64,000 nt of DNA from Haloactinopolyspora alba (GTDB taxonomy: Bacteria; Actinomycetota; Actinomycetes; Jiangellales; Jiangellaceae): positions 62,001-126,000 of the forward strand of contig NZ_PYGE01000010.1 in assembly GCF_003014555.1 (NCBI RefSeq), in the 5' to 3' direction. Under the pieces are notes generated by a model, which saw nothing but the letters and a program-made list of their open reading frames with translations, was not told where the DNA came from and ran no database searches. Shown here piece after piece: positions 54,875-61,921 of the stretch (position 1 is the first letter of the stretch; each line of letters begins with the position of its first letter). The position numbers and the translations under genes are program-made.

Positions 54875-54902
54875 CCAATCCGCGGCGGGCTCGGCGGCGA
54901 AC
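54875..54902 (+). promoter_or_regulatory. SigK-type promoter of the molybdopterin oxidoreductase gene
   Basis: CCAATCC (54875-54881), 15 bases, GCGAAC (54897-54902), 7 bases before the ATG, so the message would be leaderless. The same -35 with the same spacing recurs upstream of the two CHRD genes. Confidence 0.65.
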
Positions 54903-54909
54903 ACCGGTC

Positions 54910-56472
54910 ATGAGGGGACAGTCGCACCGCCGGCGCAGCCGGGCCACAGCCGCCGTGGCCGGGCTGGTCGCCGGCGGTGCGACGCTCGGGGTCGGCGAGC
55001 TGGCTGCCGGGGCCGTCGATCGGTCGGCCGCGCCGTTCCTCGCCGTAGGTAACGCCGCGGTCGACCTCACCCCGGAATGGCTCAAGAGCTGGGCCGTCTC
55101 GACGTTCGGCGAGGACGACAAACTCGTCCTACTCGGCGGGATGGGTGCCGTGCTGGCGCTGTTCTCGCTGATCGGCGGCATGCTGGAGCTGTGGCGGCGG
55201 TGGTACGGCGTCGCGGCTCTCGTGGCGCTGGGTGCAGTTGCTGCCGTCGCCGCGCTGAACCGGCCCACCGCCGAGCCATCGTGGGCGGTTCCCACGGTCT
55301 CCGGCGTCGCCGCCGGAGCAGCGATGCTCGTGGTGCTGGTGGACCGGCTTCGTGTGCCGGAGCGCGTCGCGGACACGGGGGAGTCCGCGACGCAGTTCCG
55401 GCGCCGCCGTCGCCAGTTCCTGCTGCTCACCACCGCTGCGGCCGGCCTGGCCGTCGTCGCAGCGGTGGGTGGGCGGCGCCTCGGCGGGTCCCGGGATGAC
55501 GTGCTCGCGGCTCGCGAGCGGCTCCGCTTCCCGGCGCCGACCGAACCGAAGGCACGGGTCCCGTCCGGCGTGACACTCGACGTCGAGGGCATCACCGGGT
55601 TCCGCACGCCGAACCCCGACTTCTACCGGGTCGACACCCGGCTGGACGTGCCTGCGATCCGTCCCGACGATTGGCGGCTGCGCATCCACGGCATGGTCGA
55701 GCGCGAGGTGGAGCTCGACTTCGACAACGTGCTGGCGCTCGGCCTGGTCGAACGGATGATCACGCTGACCTGCGTGTCGAACGAGGTCGGCGGCGAACTC
55801 GCCGGCAACGCCGTCTGGCTCGGGTACCCCACCGCGGCGCTACTGGAACGCGCCGGCCCGTCGCCGGACGCGGACATGGTGCTGTCGTCCAGCGTCGACG
55901 GTTTCACCATAAGCACTCCGCTGACGGCGCTGACCGACGGCCGCGGGGCGCTGCTGGCTGTCGGGATGAACGGTGAGCCGCTGCCGCTGGAGCACGGGTT
56001 CCCGGCGCGGCTGGTGGTTCCCGGGCTCTACGGCTACGTGTCGGCCACGAAGTGGGTCGTCGATCTCGAGGTCACCAGATTCGACCGGGCGACGGCTTAC
56101 TGGACCGACCGCGGCTGGGCCGAGCGCGCCCCGATCAAGATCGCGTCCCGCATCGACGTCCCCGGCTCGTTCGCGAAGCTGCCGACCGGCCGGAACGTCG
56201 TCGCCGGCGTGGCGTGGGCACAGCGCCGCGGCATCAGCCGCGTCGAGGTTCAGGTCGACGACGGACCGTGGCAGCGGGCGGAGCTGGCGGCCGAGGCGTC
56301 GGTGGACGTGTGGCGCCAGTGGTACTGGCCGTGGGACGCCGACGAGCCGGGCAATCACACGCTCCGGGTACGCGCCACCGACGGCGACGGCGAGCTGCAG
56401 ACCGACGAGCAGGCGCCGCCGTTCCCGGAGGGCTCGAGCGGATGGCACTCGGTGGTGGTGACCGTGAACTGA
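54910..56472 (+). CDS. membrane-anchored molybdopterin-dependent oxidoreductase
   Basis: A 520-residue sulfite-oxidase/YedY-type enzyme. Residues 1-180 hold about five hydrophobic helices (an N-terminal membrane domain), then the molybdopterin domain: [45 protein letters not shown] with Cys288 as Mo ligand, [23 protein letters not shown], then a C-terminal Mo-co dimerisation-like Ig domain ([27 protein letters not shown]). Physiological substrate unknown; sulfur oxyanions or methionine-sulfoxide reduction are candidates. First gene of the SigK-linked group. Confidence 0.9.
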
Positions 56473-56531: not shown

Positions 56532-57221
56532 ATGAAACTCCTGACCAGCCGGACCCCGGCACTCGTCGCGGCGGTCGCGGCTCTGGCCCTGACCACTGCG
56601 GCCTGCGGGGGAGGAGACGAAGAGACCACCACGGACGCCGCCGGCGGCGAGTCCGCGCCCGCGGACGCCTCCACATCTGACGAGCAGATGACGGACGAGG
56701 AGACCGCGGCCGGCGACACGGAGCAGATGGCCGGGCCGGTCGGCCCGGGCTGCGCCGACTACGCCTCGCAGGTCCCCGAAGGTGAGGGCTCGGTCCAGGG
56801 GATGTCCGACGACCCGGTCGCGGTGGCCGCGTCGAACAACCCGCTGCTGAAGACCCTGACCCAGGCCGTCTCCGGGAAGCTGAACCCGGACGTGAACCTC
56901 GTCGACACGCTCAACGGTGACGAGTTCACCGTCTTCGCCCCGGTCGACGACGCGTTCGCGCAGGTGGACCAGGCGACCCTGGACACCCTCAAGACCGACG
57001 CCGACCTGCTGACCAGCGTGCTCACCTACCACGTCGTGCCGGGGCAGCTGTCGCCGGAAGAGGTCGTCGGCGAGCAGACGACCGTGCAGGGCGATCCGGT
57101 CACCGTCGAGGGCGAGCCGGAGTCGCTCACCGTGAACGACGCCAACGTCATCTGCGGCGGCGTCCAGACCGCGAACGCCACCGTCTACCTGGTCGACGGC
57201 GTGCTGATGCCGCCGATGTGA
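56532..57221 (+). CDS. fasciclin-domain lipoprotein (MPT70/MPT83-like)
   Basis: A 229-residue surface lipoprotein. Signal peptide with lipobox LTTAACG (Cys at about 22), an acidic low-complexity spacer to residue 75, then one FAS1 domain: [50 protein letters not shown] and the [23 protein letters not shown]-box region. Homologous to MPT70/MPT83, the main SigK-controlled antigens of M. tuberculosis, which fits its position before sigK. AAAGGA ribosome-binding site; an ATG 15 bases earlier is less likely. It may be read from the oxidoreductase promoter. Confidence 0.9.
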
Positions 57222-57380: not shown

Positions 57381-57971
57381 ATGCCGGCGTTACGTTCGGT
57401 GCCCGCCGGCGAGCCTCCTGAGGGAGCAGATGCGCTGGGACAGCTGCTCAACCGATCCGCACGGGGTGACGTCGCCGCGTTCGAACGTATCTACGACGAG
57501 GTCGCTGGTGCGGTTCTCGGTGTGGCCATCCGCGTCATCCGGAACCGCGCGCAGGCCGAGGAGGTCGCGCAGGACGTGTTGGTCGAGGTCTGGCGCTCGG
57601 CGTCGAGGTACGTCCCCGAGCGCGGCAGCGCCATCGGCTGGATCATGACCATCGCGCATCGGCGCGCCGTCGACCGGGTCCGGCAAGCACAGGCCGACGG
57701 TGACCGCGCGGAGAAGGTGGCCCGGCGCGACGACGCGCGACCGTACGACGAGGTCGCCGATGCCGTGGAGACGAGCTTCGAGCGGGAACAGGTGCAGCGG
57801 TGTCTCGGCAACCTGACGGACCTGCAACGTGAGTCCGTGGCGCTGGCCTACTACGAGGGATACACCTACCGAGAGGTGGCGCAGTTGCTGCAGACGCCTC
57901 TCGGCACGGTCAAGACGCGGCTGCGCGACGGTCTGATCCGGTTGCGTGACTGCATGGGGTTGGGGCGATGA
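57381..57971 (+). CDS. sigK: ECF sigma factor SigK
   Basis: A 196-residue ECF sigma factor. Sigma2: FERIYDEVAGAVLGVAIRVIRNRAQAEEVAQDVLVEVWRSASRY; sigma4: NLTDLQRESVALAYYEGYTYREVAQLLQTPLGTVKTRLRDGLIRLR. It is assigned as SigK because the next gene is RskA-like and overlaps it (ATGA) and a fasciclin lipoprotein precedes it, the same combination as in mycobacteria. It should transcribe the surface-protein genes around it. ATG with AGGGAG upstream. Confidence 0.93.
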   Translation: MPALRSVPAGEPPEGADALGQLLNRSARGDVAAFERIYDEVAGAVLGVAIRVIRNRAQAEEVAQDVLVEVWRSASRYVPERGSAIGWIMTIAHRRAVDRVRQAQADGDRAEKVARRDDARPYDEVADAVETSFEREQVQRCLGNLTDLQRESVALAYYEGYTYREVAQLLQTPLGTVKTRLRDGLIRLRDCMGLGR

Positions 57972-58732
57972 CGATGCCGACGAACGCCGACATTCACACG
58001 CTCGCGGCTCCGTATGCGCTGCATTCGCTGCCGCCGGACGAGGCGACGACGTTCGAGGCACATCTCGGCGAGTGTGCCGCCTGCCGCGCGGAGGTCGACG
58101 AGATCCGGGAGACGGCGGCGCGCCTCGGCGTCTCGGCCGCGGTACAGCCGCCTCCGGAGCTCAAAGAGCAGGTGCTGGCCCGCATCCGCGAGGTGCGGCC
58201 GCTGCCGCCTGCCGGCGATCGGTCGGACGCGGACGCCGAGACCGGCAGTGCCCGGGCGCGAGCGCTGCGACGCTGGTGGCCACGGGTGGCGACCGGGCTG
58301 GTCGCGGCGATGGCGGCCGGCATCGCCGTGCTGGGGGTCAGGTTGGACGACGTGCAGGAGGAGCTGGACCGGTCCCAGCAGATCGGTGCGCAGATGCGTC
58401 AGCTCGCGGACGCGCCGGACCTCGAGATGGTGCGGGCCGAGGCCGACGGCAGCCGGGGAACGGTGCTGCTGTCGCGGTCACTGGACACCGCGGTGCTGAT
58501 CGCGGACGGGATGGAACCCGCGCCGGACGAGCACGTCTACCAGCTGTGGTTCATCGGCGACGACGGCATCCGGTCCGCCGGCGTGTTGGGCGAGACCGAC
58601 GACGGACAGGTCGGACCGTTCACCGCACAGGGCGTCGGCGGTGCCGGACAGCTCGGCATCACGGTCGAACCCGCCGGCGGGTCGGAGCAGCCGACGACCG
58701 ATCCGGTCATGGTGATCGACCTGCCGGCCTGA
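57968..58732 (+). CDS. rskA: anti-sigma-K factor RskA
   Basis: A 254-residue single-pass membrane anti-sigma factor. The N-terminal zinc-type anti-sigma domain has LHSLPPDEATTFEAHLGECAACRAEVDEI (HxxxCxxC at about 33-40), a transmembrane helix at about 112-131 (VATGLVAAMAAGIAVLGV), and an extracytoplasmic RskA domain (ADGSRGTVLLSRSLDTAVLIADGMEPAPDEHVYQLWFIGDDG). Proteolysis of this domain in response to an envelope signal is expected to release SigK. ATGA overlap with sigK gives stoichiometric synthesis. Confidence 0.93.
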   Translation: MTMPTNADIHTLAAPYALHSLPPDEATTFEAHLGECAACRAEVDEIRETAARLGVSAAVQPPPELKEQVLARIREVRPLPPAGDRSDADAETGSARARALRRWWPRVATGLVAAMAAGIAVLGVRLDDVQEELDRSQQIGAQMRQLADAPDLEMVRAEADGSRGTVLLSRSLDTAVLIADGMEPAPDEHVYQLWFIGDDGIRSAGVLGETDDGQVGPFTAQGVGGAGQLGITVEPAGGSEQPTTDPVMVIDLPA

Positions 58733-58749: not shown

Positions 58750-58777
58750 CCAATCCGTATCGGCGGTCGCTCCGAAC
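58750..58777 (+). promoter_or_regulatory. SigK-type promoter of the CHRD-sortase operon
   Basis: CCAATCC (58750-58756), 15 bases, CCGAAC (58772-58777), located 50 bases before the ATG of the first CHRD gene, leaving a leader with an AGAAAGGA ribosome-binding site. Confidence 0.7.
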
Positions 58778-58827: not shown

Positions 58828-59640
58828 ATGCGACACACTCGTGCGCTCCTGGCGGTTCCGGCCGCATTCGCACTCACGGCGGCCGGCGCGGCGCCGGCGA
58901 TGGCCGATTCGAGTGAGGGTCAGCCCGGCGATTACAGCATCACCATGGATCAGCTCAACGAAAGCGGGGCCTCCGGCTCGGCGGTGATCACGCTGGAGGA
59001 CAACGGCGACCTGACCGTCAAGGTGGAGGCGTCCGGCCTGGTACCGAACCAGCCGCATGCGCAGCACATCCATGGCAACACCGACCAGAGCCAGGACTTC
59101 GTCTGCCCGACGCCCGAGGCTGACGCCGACGGCAACGGCATCGTCGACACGGCGGAGGGCATCCCTTCGTACGGTGACATCCACATCTCGCTGACGACGA
59201 AGGGCGACTCCACCGCGGACTCCGCGCTGGCCGTGGACCGGATGCCGGTGGCCGACGCCGAAGGCAACGTGAACTACGAGCGCACCTTCAGCTCCGACGA
59301 GCTGCCGGAGGGCACGGCGGCCGCGGTGCGCAACCTGCACGTGGTGCAGCACGGCATCGACCCGAACGGCAACGGTGAGTACGACACCGACGCCGGGGCG
59401 TCGCCGCTGGACAAGAGCCTGCCACTCGAGGCGACCGCGCCCGCGGCGTGCGGGATCATCGAGGGCTCGTCGGTCAGTGACATGCCCGACGGCGGCGTGG
59501 ACACCGGCGCCGGTCCGATGGCGGAGTCCGGCTCCGATGGAAATGTCGCGCTGACAGCCGTCTCGATCGCCGCCGGCGCGGGCCTGGCCGGCGCAGCCGG
59601 CGTCGGTCTGTACCGTCGTCGTCTGGCCGCCCAACAGTGA
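58828..59640 (+). CDS. CHRD-domain surface protein with C-terminal sorting-like tail
   Basis: A 270-residue exported protein. Signal peptide (to about residue 26, APAMA), then one CHRD-like domain (SGSAVITLEDNGDLTVKVEASGLVPNQPHAQHIH). Residues 99-110, DADGNGIVDTAE, match an EF-hand calcium loop. The C-terminus has PDGGVDTGAG, a hydrophobic helix (VALTAVSIAAGAGLAGAAGVGLY) and a basic end (RRRLAAQQ), laid out like a sortase sorting signal but without LPXTG. The sortase gene overlaps its stop (GTGA), so it is the obvious substrate. Function of CHRD domains in bacteria is unknown. Confidence 0.88.
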   Translation: MRHTRALLAVPAAFALTAAGAAPAMADSSEGQPGDYSITMDQLNESGASGSAVITLEDNGDLTVKVEASGLVPNQPHAQHIHGNTDQSQDFVCPTPEADADGNGIVDTAEGIPSYGDIHISLTTKGDSTADSALAVDRMPVADAEGNVNYERTFSSDELPEGTAAAVRNLHVVQHGIDPNGNGEYDTDAGASPLDKSLPLEATAPAACGIIEGSSVSDMPDGGVDTGAGPMAESGSDGNVALTAVSIAAGAGLAGAAGVGLYRRRLAAQQ

Positions 59641-60419
59641 GACAGAGCCTGGTGACCCCGGTGCGTGGTGGTCGTGACCCGGCCGCCTCGCACCGGTCAC
59701 GCCGGGCGGTTGCGGCCGTGCCGGCCGTGGTAGCTGGGTTCGCGCTCACGCTGACCGGGTGCGGCGCCGGTGAGACCGGTGACGACGGTGGCCGGGCGGC
59801 GCCGAGTGTGTCGACGCCGGAGTCGCCTTCAGGAGGGGTGCCCGCGGAACCACCGCCCGCGCAGAACGGTACCGCCGACGCGAAAGCACCCCCCGTATCC
59901 GCACCGCCGTCGTCGGCAGCGCCGGAGCCCGAACCGCCGGAGCCCGACCCGGAGACAGCCGCGGTACTGGCAGCGAGTGAGCCGGTCGAGGTCGCGATCG
60001 GGGCGCTGGACGTGCGGGAAGAGATCATCCCGCTCGGGCTGACCGACGAGGGCGTCATGGAGGTGCCACAGGGCCCGGACCCGGTGGGCTGGTACGACCG
60101 GAGCCCGACGCCGGGTGAGAGGGGTCCTGCGGTGCTGGCCGGGCACGTGACGTGGAACGGCACGGCCGGGGTGTTCCGGCACCTCGACGATCTCGCCGAG
60201 CGCGACGAGATCGTCGTCACGCGCGCGGACGGATCGACCGCGCGGTTCGCTGTCACCGGTGTCGAGCAGTACGGCAAGGACGAGTTCCCCACCGCGCGCG
60301 TCTACGGCAACACGCCCGGTCCGGAACTGCGGCTCATCACGTGTGCCGGCGACTACGACCCCGAAGCCAACGACTACAGCGACAACGTCGTCGTCTACGC
60401 CCGATCGGTCGCGCCCTGA
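59637..60419 (+). CDS. class F sortase
   Basis: A 260-residue sortase with His170 (AGHVTWNG), Cys236 (LITCAGDYD) and Arg256 (VVVYAR) as the catalytic triad. The N-terminal signal ends in LTLTGC, a lipobox-like sequence, followed by a Pro/Glu-rich spacer of about 60 residues (residues 45-105), so it is tethered outside the membrane. It should cut and attach the C-terminal sorting signal of the CHRD protein encoded just upstream, and perhaps other substrates elsewhere. GTG start overlapping the CHRD stop. Confidence 0.9.
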   Translation: MRQSLVTPVRGGRDPAASHRSRRAVAAVPAVVAGFALTLTGCGAGETGDDGGRAAPSVSTPESPSGGVPAEPPPAQNGTADAKAPPVSAPPSSAAPEPEPPEPDPETAAVLAASEPVEVAIGALDVREEIIPLGLTDEGVMEVPQGPDPVGWYDRSPTPGERGPAVLAGHVTWNGTAGVFRHLDDLAERDEIVVTRADGSTARFAVTGVEQYGKDEFPTARVYGNTPGPELRLITCAGDYDPEANDYSDNVVVYARSVAP

Positions 60420-60460: not shown

Positions 60461-60488
60461 CCAATCCGCGCCCTGCACGGCGCCGAAC
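60461..60488 (+). promoter_or_regulatory. SigK-type promoter of the second CHRD gene
   Basis: CCAATCC (60461-60467), 15 bases, CCGAAC (60483-60488), identical in boxes and spacing to the one before the first CHRD gene; about 97 bases before the ATG. Confidence 0.7.
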
Positions 60489-60585: not shown

Positions 60586-61296
60586 ATGCACAAGCAGGCG
60601 CTCAGAACGGCGCTGGGCCTGGCAGCCGTGGCGGGACTGACGATGACCGGTGCCGCGGCCGCGAACGCAGACGAAACCACGCGCCACGAGGGCCACGGGC
60701 GGACGATCACCGTGTTCAACCTGGACGAACTGAACGACTCCGGCGCCCATGGTGTCGGGGTGGTCAAGCTCGAGGGGAACGAGGCCGAGGTCCGTGTCTA
60801 CGCGTTCGGTGTTCTCGAGGACCAGCCGCACGCACAGCACTTTCACATCGGCGGCGCCGGGCAGTGCCCGACCGGTGACGACGATGCGGACGGTGACGGA
60901 ATCATCAGCACGGCCGAGGGCATCCCTGCCTACGGCGCTGTCGGCACCTCGTTGACGACGACCGGAGACACAAGCCCGGCCAGTGCGCTCGCTGTGGACA
61001 GGTTCCCGACGGCAGACCACGGGATGGTCCGGTACGACCGGACCCTGACGCTGAGCGACGATGCTGCGGACGAACTGCGGTCCGGCAACGCCGTGCTGGT
61101 CGTGCACGGCATCGACCCGAACGGCAGCGGTAGCTACGACGGGGACGCCCCCAGCTCGCTCGACCCCTCGCTCCCGCTGGAGGCCACCGCCCCCGCGGCA
61201 TGCGGCGACCAGACGGTCGTCGTCGGCGGCGGTTCGGGCCTCGGCCTCGGTCTCGGCCTTGGCATCGGCATCGACCTCGGCTTCGGCCGGAGCTGA
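60586..61296 (+). CDS. second CHRD-domain secreted protein
   Basis: A 236-residue paralog of the CHRD protein upstream, sharing PHAQHxH, TAEGIPxYG, SALAVDRxPxAD, HGIDPNGxGxYD and SLPLEATAPAACG. Signal peptide to about residue 28 (AAANA). Residues 100-111, DADGDGIISTAE, again match an EF-hand loop apart from Ser at position 9. It lacks the C-terminal anchor; instead it ends in a Gly-rich GLGLGLGLGIGIDLGFG tail. Possibly secreted free. GAGGAGGT ribosome-binding site before the ATG; own SigK-type promoter. Confidence 0.87.
   Translation: MHKQALRTALGLAAVAGLTMTGAAAANADETTRHEGHGRTITVFNLDELNDSGAHGVGVVKLEGNEAEVRVYAFGVLEDQPHAQHFHIGGAGQCPTGDDDADGDGIISTAEGIPAYGAVGTSLTTTGDTSPASALAVDRFPTADHGMVRYDRTLTLSDDAADELRSGNAVLVVHGIDPNGSGSYDGDAPSSLDPSLPLEATAPAACGDQTVVVGGGSGLGLGLGLGIGIDLGFGRS
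61237..61287 (+). repeat. hexanucleotide tandem repeat encoding the Gly-Leu tail
   Basis: About eight imperfect GGCNTC units (GGCCTC, GGCCTC, GGTCTC, GGCCTT, GGCATC, GGCATC, GACCTC, GGCTTC) encode the alternating Gly-hydrophobic end of the second CHRD protein. Slippage here could change the tail length. Confidence 0.7.
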
Positions 61297-61342: not shown

Positions 61343-61843
61343 ATGAAGATCCGTACCATCGCCGCGACTGTCGTGGCGCCGCTGACCGCAGTCGGCCTGA
61401 TGCTCGCTGGTTCCACAGCGGCCACTGCCGCCCCGTCCACTCCGAGTGACGAGCAGCTGGAGGTCGAACTCGAGGCCGGCCTGCAGTCCACGATCGAGAA
61501 CCGACTCAGCGAGGACGGACTCGACCTCGACGCCGTCGTCGACGTCCAGATCGACGGCGACATCACGCTGGACGTCGACCTCGAGGGGCAGGTCGACGGT
61601 GAGATCGACGCACAGACCGAGCGGGACATCGAGTCCGACCTGGAAGCGGACCTCGAGGCGGAGCTGATCGTCATCCTCGAGGCGGAGCTCGACGACCTGC
61701 TCGACCTGTTCCTGTTCCTCAGCCTCGGTGCCGACCTCGACGTCGACGCGGACCTGGAGATCGACGAGGACGGCGAGGCGCAGCTGCACACCGATGTCCA
61801 GGTCGAGGGCGGCCTGCTCGTCCTGCTGGACCTGCACCTGTGA
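61343..61843 (+). CDS. small, extremely acidic secreted protein, unknown
   Basis: A 166-residue protein with a signal peptide (GLMLAGSTAATAA, cut near residue 29). I recognise no family. By my count the mature part of about 135 residues has 44 Asp or Glu and only 2 Arg, no Lys and no Cys, with Leu/Val/Ile at alternate positions (DLDAVVDVQIDGDITLDVDL; ADLDVDADLEIDEDGEA). The pattern resembles repeated acidic beta-strands, with a hydrophobic LLDLFLFLSLG stretch in the middle. Calcium binding is a guess. ATG with CGAAAGG upstream, 46 bases after the CHRD gene, so probably cotranscribed. Confidence 0.78.
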   Translation: MKIRTIAATVVAPLTAVGLMLAGSTAATAAPSTPSDEQLEVELEAGLQSTIENRLSEDGLDLDAVVDVQIDGDITLDVDLEGQVDGEIDAQTERDIESDLEADLEAELIVILEAELDDLLDLFLFLSLGADLDVDADLEIDEDGEAQLHTDVQVEGGLLVLLDLHL

Positions 61844-61882: not shown

Positions 61883-61921
61883 GGCCCCCGGCGCCCTGCA
61901 GCGGTGGCGCCGGGGGCCTTT
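61883..61921 (+). terminator. strong intrinsic terminator
   Basis: GGCCCCCGGCGCC (61883-61895), a 10-base loop, and the exact complement GGCGCCGGGGGCC (61906-61918), then TTT. The most classical terminator in the window; it closes the CHRD/acidic-protein unit. Confidence 0.9.

Follow-up and report, generated by a model that had tools for sequence, protein, structure and literature searches.

A small, strongly acidic and probably secreted protein encoded within a SigK/RskA-type gene cluster of Haloactinopolyspora alba

The closest described counterpart of the locus analyzed here is the mycobacterial SigK/RskA regulon (MPT70/MPT83), in which, according to the sections of PMC7509140 drawn on here, the genes for SigK, RskA and a fasciclin protein stand together, SigK carries two cysteines (Cys133 and Cys183 in M. 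tuberculosis), and a recurring promoter-like motif accompanies a set of secreted products. In the same sections the signal that starts the SigK cascade is stated to be unknown and the function of the regulon is treated as still undeciphered.

The window, i.e. the whole 64,000-nucleotide stretch of H. alba DNA that was analyzed (contig NZ_PYGE01000010.1, positions 62,001 to 126,000), contains a cluster with the gene order molybdopterin oxidoreductase, fasciclin protein, SigK, RskA, CHRD1, class F sortase, CHRD2, acidic protein and polyketide-cyclase-like (SRPBCC-type) protein (Table 1). SigK, RskA, the fasciclin protein and the sortase all score above curated cut-offs, so that sigK, rskA and a fasciclin gene are found together as in mycobacteria; the two cysteines of the window SigK are 50 residues apart, a spacing equal to that of the 133/183 pair given in the consulted part of PMC7509140. 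Unlike the mycobacterial regulon, however, the cluster includes a molybdopterin oxidoreductase, CHRD proteins, a class F sortase and the acidic protein that is the subject of this report. Our main reading, to which we assign a probability of about 0.5, is that the acidic protein is exported under SigK control and serves as a cation-dependent component of the cell envelope. Its two parts differ in strength: membership of a secreted protein in the SigK/RskA regulon is quite likely, the regulation itself being argued by analogy with SigK in other bacteria; a role in building or buffering the wall or matrix that depends on cations or acid, as judged from composition, is put forward tentatively.

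Table 1. Features of the SigK cluster in the window (window positions).
Feature	Position	Strand	Evidence
SigK-type motif before molybdopterin oxidoreductase (fasciclin gene behind)	54875..54902	+	motif scan
Molybdopterin-dependent oxidoreductase	54910..56472	+	Pfam Oxidored_molyb 143 bits
Fasciclin-domain protein (MPT70/MPT83 type by context)	56532..57221	+	Pfam Fasciclin 94.5 bits
ECF sigma factor SigK	57381..57971	+	NCBIfam NF007228 261.6 bits (cut-off 226); Cys141, Cys191
RskA-type anti-sigma factor	57968..58732	+	Pfam RskA_C and RskA_N above cut-off
SigK-type motif before CHRD1-sortase	58750..58777	+	motif scan
CHRD1; C-terminal GGVDTG, membrane stretch, Arg tail	58828..59640	+	Pfam CHRD 27.8 bits (cut-off 24.1), scored on a frame with an earlier, probably wrong start; listed start re-read
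Class F sortase	59637..60419	+	NCBIfam NF033748 183 bits (cut-off 166)
SigK-type motif CCAATCC-N15-CCGAAC before CHRD2-acidic unit	60461..60488	+	motif scan
CHRD2, CHRD-like secreted protein, first gene of unit	60586..61296	+	Pfam CHRD weak, E 0.042, below cut-off
Acidic secreted protein, 166 aa	61343..61843	+	ATG start, TGA stop; composition and homologues
Probable signal peptide, residues 1-30 (MKIRT...ATAA)	61343..61432	+	by eye; similar start in 4/4 proteins of set A1
Candidate terminator: perfect 13-bp inverted repeat, 10-nt loop, then TTTGT	61883..61918	+	z -3.35

The motif that recurs before three units of the cluster, CCAATCC-N16-CGAA, compares with the form CCATCC...CCGAAT of the mycobacterial SigK motif. 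Exact matches number three in the 5.5-Mb genome and all three lie inside the SigK cluster, while the reversed pattern has none in the same genome; two more matches, with a spacer one base shorter, lie outside the cluster. Since composition alone predicts about 1.4 matches per genome, it is the position of the matches and not their number that is taken as evidence. Across 22 genomes of the family, 43 of the 65 exact matches fall no more than 15 kb from a SigK gene, where chance placement would give about 0.3, and the other 22 are not near SigK. A slightly different form, CCAATCC-N15-nCGAAy, was met 56 times in the window and related loci (429,643 bp together), whereas five Markov controls gave 4-9; the scan covered whole loci, allowed one mismatch in the first part and includes some matches with no plausible gene behind them. 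The motif was defined here from sequence, partly from loci that were later scanned with it, and it is in this sense that a SigK-type motif stands upstream of the acidic unit. No such motif was found at the window's own sigK gene. A search with the mycobacterial form pointed the way to the local motif but was otherwise set aside, its matches being scattered and the loose pattern also hitting 15.7% of random 263-bp windows. The oxidoreductase ATG begins 8 bp past the end of its motif (window 54875-54910), an arrangement seen also in L038, L042, L045 and L046, which suggests that the oxidoreductase transcript may be leaderless.

The mature acidic protein, taken as residues 31-166 (136 aa), contains 44 Asp or Glu (32%), two Arg, two His and no Lys by direct count, in agreement with the 44 acidic residues against two Arg reported in the earlier note; Cys, Trp and Tyr are all absent. 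The alternation of acidic and hydrophobic residues described there is likewise borne out: 40 of 134 triplets are of the acidic-hydrophobic type against 14.0 +/- 4.1 in shuffled sequence, none of 20,000 shuffles reaching 40, and in 40 of 42 overlapping windows of 12 residues the hydrophobic moment for beta periodicity is larger, by the set margin, than that for a helix. The protein ends in ...LLVLLDLHL, with no C-terminal sorting motif, membrane helix or basic tail, and its N-terminus reads as an export signal; it is therefore probably secreted without a wall anchor. Among the 59 predicted proteins of the window it ranks as the most acidic, with a full-length (D+E)-(K+R) of +0.24, the runner-up reaching +0.14. 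Salt-in halophiles display an acidic shift across the whole proteome. Because the remaining window proteins are not acidic to this degree (medians over the 59 are 0.136 for D+E and 0.094 for K+R), genome-wide halo-adaptation is contradicted, and the suggestion of a halo-adapted matrix protein finds no support.

How such a protein might act can be outlined as follows. The membrane anti-sigma factor RskA would release SigK, and the freed sigma factor would fire the SigK-type promoters of three neighboring units, i.e. molybdopterin oxidoreductase-fasciclin, CHRD1-class F sortase and CHRD2-acidic protein. The signal peptide would then export the acidic protein to the wall space or the surrounding matrix, where amphipathic stretches with an Asp/Glu face and an aliphatic face would be kept soluble by charge repulsion until divalent cations or low pH neutralize the acidic face and bring about folding or association. 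In the stressed envelope the protein would thus have a structural or buffering role that depends on cations. This functional part draws on composition, with the alternation and the conservation of chemical class counting in its favor; no cation-binding motif was found in the acidic protein and no reliable fold was obtained. A bolder version, in which the protein belongs to a lineage-restricted family that works as a matrix made on demand by SigK, soluble at export and assembling into amphipathic sheets in the wall once Ca2+ or protons neutralize its acidic face, is speculative and, taken whole, unlikely.

As to family and fold, the statement of the earlier note that no known family has this pattern is upheld: the acidic protein matches nothing in Pfam, NCBIfam or PDB sequences above cut-off or better than E 0.005, and no Pfam CHRD match appears up to E 1. 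Several lesser matches were rejected. NCBIfam MSCRAMM matches (best 0.0054) lie in regions taken to be acidic repeats; Pfam OMP_b-brl (0.00027) and DUF4148 (0.0029), each in one or two of the six members of set A2, and a blastp match between the acidic protein and a CHRD-like protein (E 9e-6, 27% identity) were taken to be due to composition. Pfam Bactofilin (best E 0.016 over six members) and TamB (0.052) have a beta-rich sequence pattern that resembles that of the acidic protein, which falls below their curated cut-offs, and no homology is claimed. Two AlphaFold runs without alignment each gave a mean pLDDT of 56, i.e. low confidence, and both placed helices at residues 36-57 and ~90-127 and strands at ~132-140, 146-154 and 160-165, with a C-terminal beta hairpin; strands at 63-81 appeared only in the first run, the second having used the mature part. 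The Foldseek search proposed in the earlier note, carried out with this low-confidence model against the PDB, returned nothing at E 0.001 or better. A calcium-folded beta-solenoid, also proposed there as a possible fold, has no support as yet: the low-confidence runs show helices plus a C-terminal hairpin, and regular coils could hardly be recognized in models this poor, while the periodicity is almost entirely beta-like. The calcium-binding RTX beta-roll has GGxGxDxxx repeats as its signature, and none were seen by eye in the translation.

These same models speak for the likeliest alternative, namely a stable alpha/beta protein of two tandem helix-plus-strands modules that would need no cations to fold and would attach to a wall polymer or to a partner protein such as CHRD or DUF4331, its acidity serving solubility. 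The first run gives helix-strand-strand followed by helix-strand-strand-strand, the second repeats both helices and the C-terminal strands, hhalign aligns the two halves with a probability of 87% and E 4e-6 (with a 19-residue insert), and some positions, Arg54 and Gly82 among them, are invariant without being acidic. However, confidence is low in both runs, the strands at 63-81 were not reproduced, no PDB structure was matched, and the beta-like periodicity is at odds with the predicted helices in that it persists even within them. The match between the halves may come from common composition, and the genes that would supply a binding partner vary among loci. We regard such a protein as rather unlikely.

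The homologues show whether the frame is a real gene with a conserved product. Matches at E 1e-6 or better occur in four of the 22 family genomes. The clear homologues are few, with 45-56% identity to the window protein: one paralogue in the same genome (45%) and two copies in genome G015 (54-56%), with alignment z scores of 17-21 against block-shuffled sequence. Relatives in G016 and G018 (L003 and L004) share 36-42% identity over parts only, and are counted as doubtful because their z scores (7.7 and 7.9) are barely above those of Asp-Val-Asp-Ala stalk repeats (6.2 and 5.4) and do not reach the 8.2 of a seemingly unrelated stretch in G083. Homologues of similar length with a common signal-peptide-like start are found in two genera; against the closest homologue from the other genus, chemical class (acidic, hydrophobic, polar or basic) is kept at 112 of 136 mature positions, as compared to 47 by shuffling. 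Codon differences at positions 1, 2 and 3 number 42, 21 and 56, fewest at position 2. These features confirm the frame as a real gene, for which the dN/dS given below is weaker evidence. The profile search scored the best candidates of each genome, nine at most. In a sample of the class, seven of 393 genomes matched at 1e-5, and in a sample of the phylum (396 genomes) the sole match was the window's own genome; scans of genome contigs yielded no wider homologues. Three of the seven class matches, all weak, were rejected: one in G008, an Asp-Val-Asp-Ala stalk; one in G083 (z 8.2), formed by the terminal part of a Lys-Ala-rich stretch of an open frame 529 codons long and seemingly a different kind of protein; and one in G020, where each strand has frames of acidic-aliphatic character (z 4.6 and 4.8).

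Stalks of this kind are the source of a second alternative, in which the acidic protein would be a low-complexity acidic filler, a disordered spacer selected for composition and not for structure and derived from Asp-Val or Asp-Ala repeats. Long Asp-Val-Asp-Ala stalks are found in LPDTG wall proteins of related genomes (L005, L006 and L014, in G006 and G008); they share the acidic-aliphatic alternation, they score against the acidic protein, and their z scores come near those of the weak G016 and G018 relatives. The dN/dS of the acidic family is also not far below one (0.43 to 0.87 over six pairs, synonymous change in these pairs being limited by a GC3 of ~0.93). But the stalks are near-perfect short repeats within large anchored proteins, whereas the acidic protein is small, non-repetitive and unanchored; its clear homologues are non-repetitive and align in register at the identities and z scores given above, with invariant Leu, Gly, Arg and His positions. 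A filler is thus distinctly unlikely.

The genomic setting of the copies bears on the regulatory part of the main reading. The acidic gene follows CHRD2 by 46 bp with no hairpin of at least 7 pairs between them; the candidate terminator behind it, plausible but with a weak tail, was not among the calls of a stricter scan. Of the four full-length clear copies, three share the strand of a sigK gene and are found 3.2-4.1 kb downstream of it. The two in G015 belong to separate SigK loci, at distances of 4.1 and 3.2 kb from sigK; each locus includes a fasciclin gene, and in each the motif heads a unit that codes for a short twin-arginine-like protein, for DUF4331, for a protein of 106 aa and, last, for the acidic protein. 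Megablast of these loci against each other shows a 94%-identical block of 2.8 kb (L021:6671-9478 and L022:6820-9631) that opens 6 bp ahead of the motif and closes 92 bp past the acidic gene, the fasciclin gene being 89% identical; since the block spans motif to acidic gene, the unit was copied or kept whole. G015 has four SigK-like and four fasciclin genes. A further SigK locus of this genome, L046, has a sortase and a CHRD-like gene and neither CHRD2 nor the acidic gene, and because the remaining SigK loci of the family also show no detectable copy, the acidic protein is considered an optional member of the regulon. Conversely, family members are not all at SigK loci. The same-genome paralogue (L013/L023:5185-5688; G000:C31) is distant from SigK and adjoins no recognizable SigK-cluster gene, and the doubtful L003 and L004 also lie elsewhere; since no SigK-type motif is found near any of them, the link with SigK does not extend to the whole acidic family. 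Behind the paralogue lies a perfect 13-bp inverted repeat (L023 5733-5765).

The same comparison limits the proposed partnership between the acidic protein and the CHRD proteins. It holds at the window locus, where the acidic gene and CHRD2 are neighbors behind one motif and their products probably share a destination, but not beyond: the acidic protein has no CHRD domain itself, the G015 units carry DUF4331 without CHRD, and the paralogue has no recognizable SigK-cluster neighbor. A CHRD-like protein encoded at a different SigK locus of the family, itself just below the Pfam cut-off, shares 54% identity with CHRD2. CHRD1 and CHRD2 contain loops that we take to be EF-hand-like (DADGNGIVDTAE, DADGDGIISTAE; DADGDG/DADGNG) and a QPHAQH stretch, and CHRD1 weakly matches Cu/Zn superoxide dismutase (Pfam Sod_Cu, E 0.0099, below cut-off). 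Wall proteins of the window SigK locus (58828-59640) and of 11 related loci (L021, L034, L037, L038, L039, L041, L042, L043, L044, L045 and L046) have GGVxTG ends (GGVDTG, GGVQTG, GGVRTG, GGVETG, GGVPTG; variants GGMRTG in L042 and GGVDSG in L021), which mostly lead into a membrane stretch and Arg residues and are distinct from LPXTG. Where checked, a class F sortase adjoins these proteins, which are of the CHRD type in the window, L021 and L046 and of the DUF4397 type in L034, and GGVxTG is possibly a non-standard sorting motif. A third alternative, that the acidic protein is a metal buffer in redox or metal stress whose carboxylates would keep Ca2+, Mg2+ or transition metals available to Cu/Zn-superoxide-dismutase-like CHRD proteins, could appeal to these loops and the QPHAQH stretch, to the Sod_Cu matches of CHRD1 and a related CHRD-like protein (0.016) and to the redox sensitivity of SigK described in the sections of PMC7509140 used here, but is improbable given that both Sod_Cu matches are under the Pfam cut-off, that two His and no Cys are unlike a copper or zinc site, and that the G015 copies accompany DUF4331 instead.

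In a body of literature that includes few of the subscription journals, no work was found that joins the CHRD domain, a sigma factor and fasciclin, or Jiangella and SigK, and nothing relevant was found on DUF4331 with CHRD or a sigma factor or on secreted acidic proteins. By the family, structure and literature searches made here, the SigK/RskA switch is thus the known element and an acidic secreted family within it the new one. With three motif-bearing units within ~7 kb, one of which has an optional and unusual product, the H. alba cluster offers a compact place to study the extracellular products of SigK, and the acidic protein itself is a small and testable case in which a strongly acidic amphipathic sequence may need cations in order to fold.
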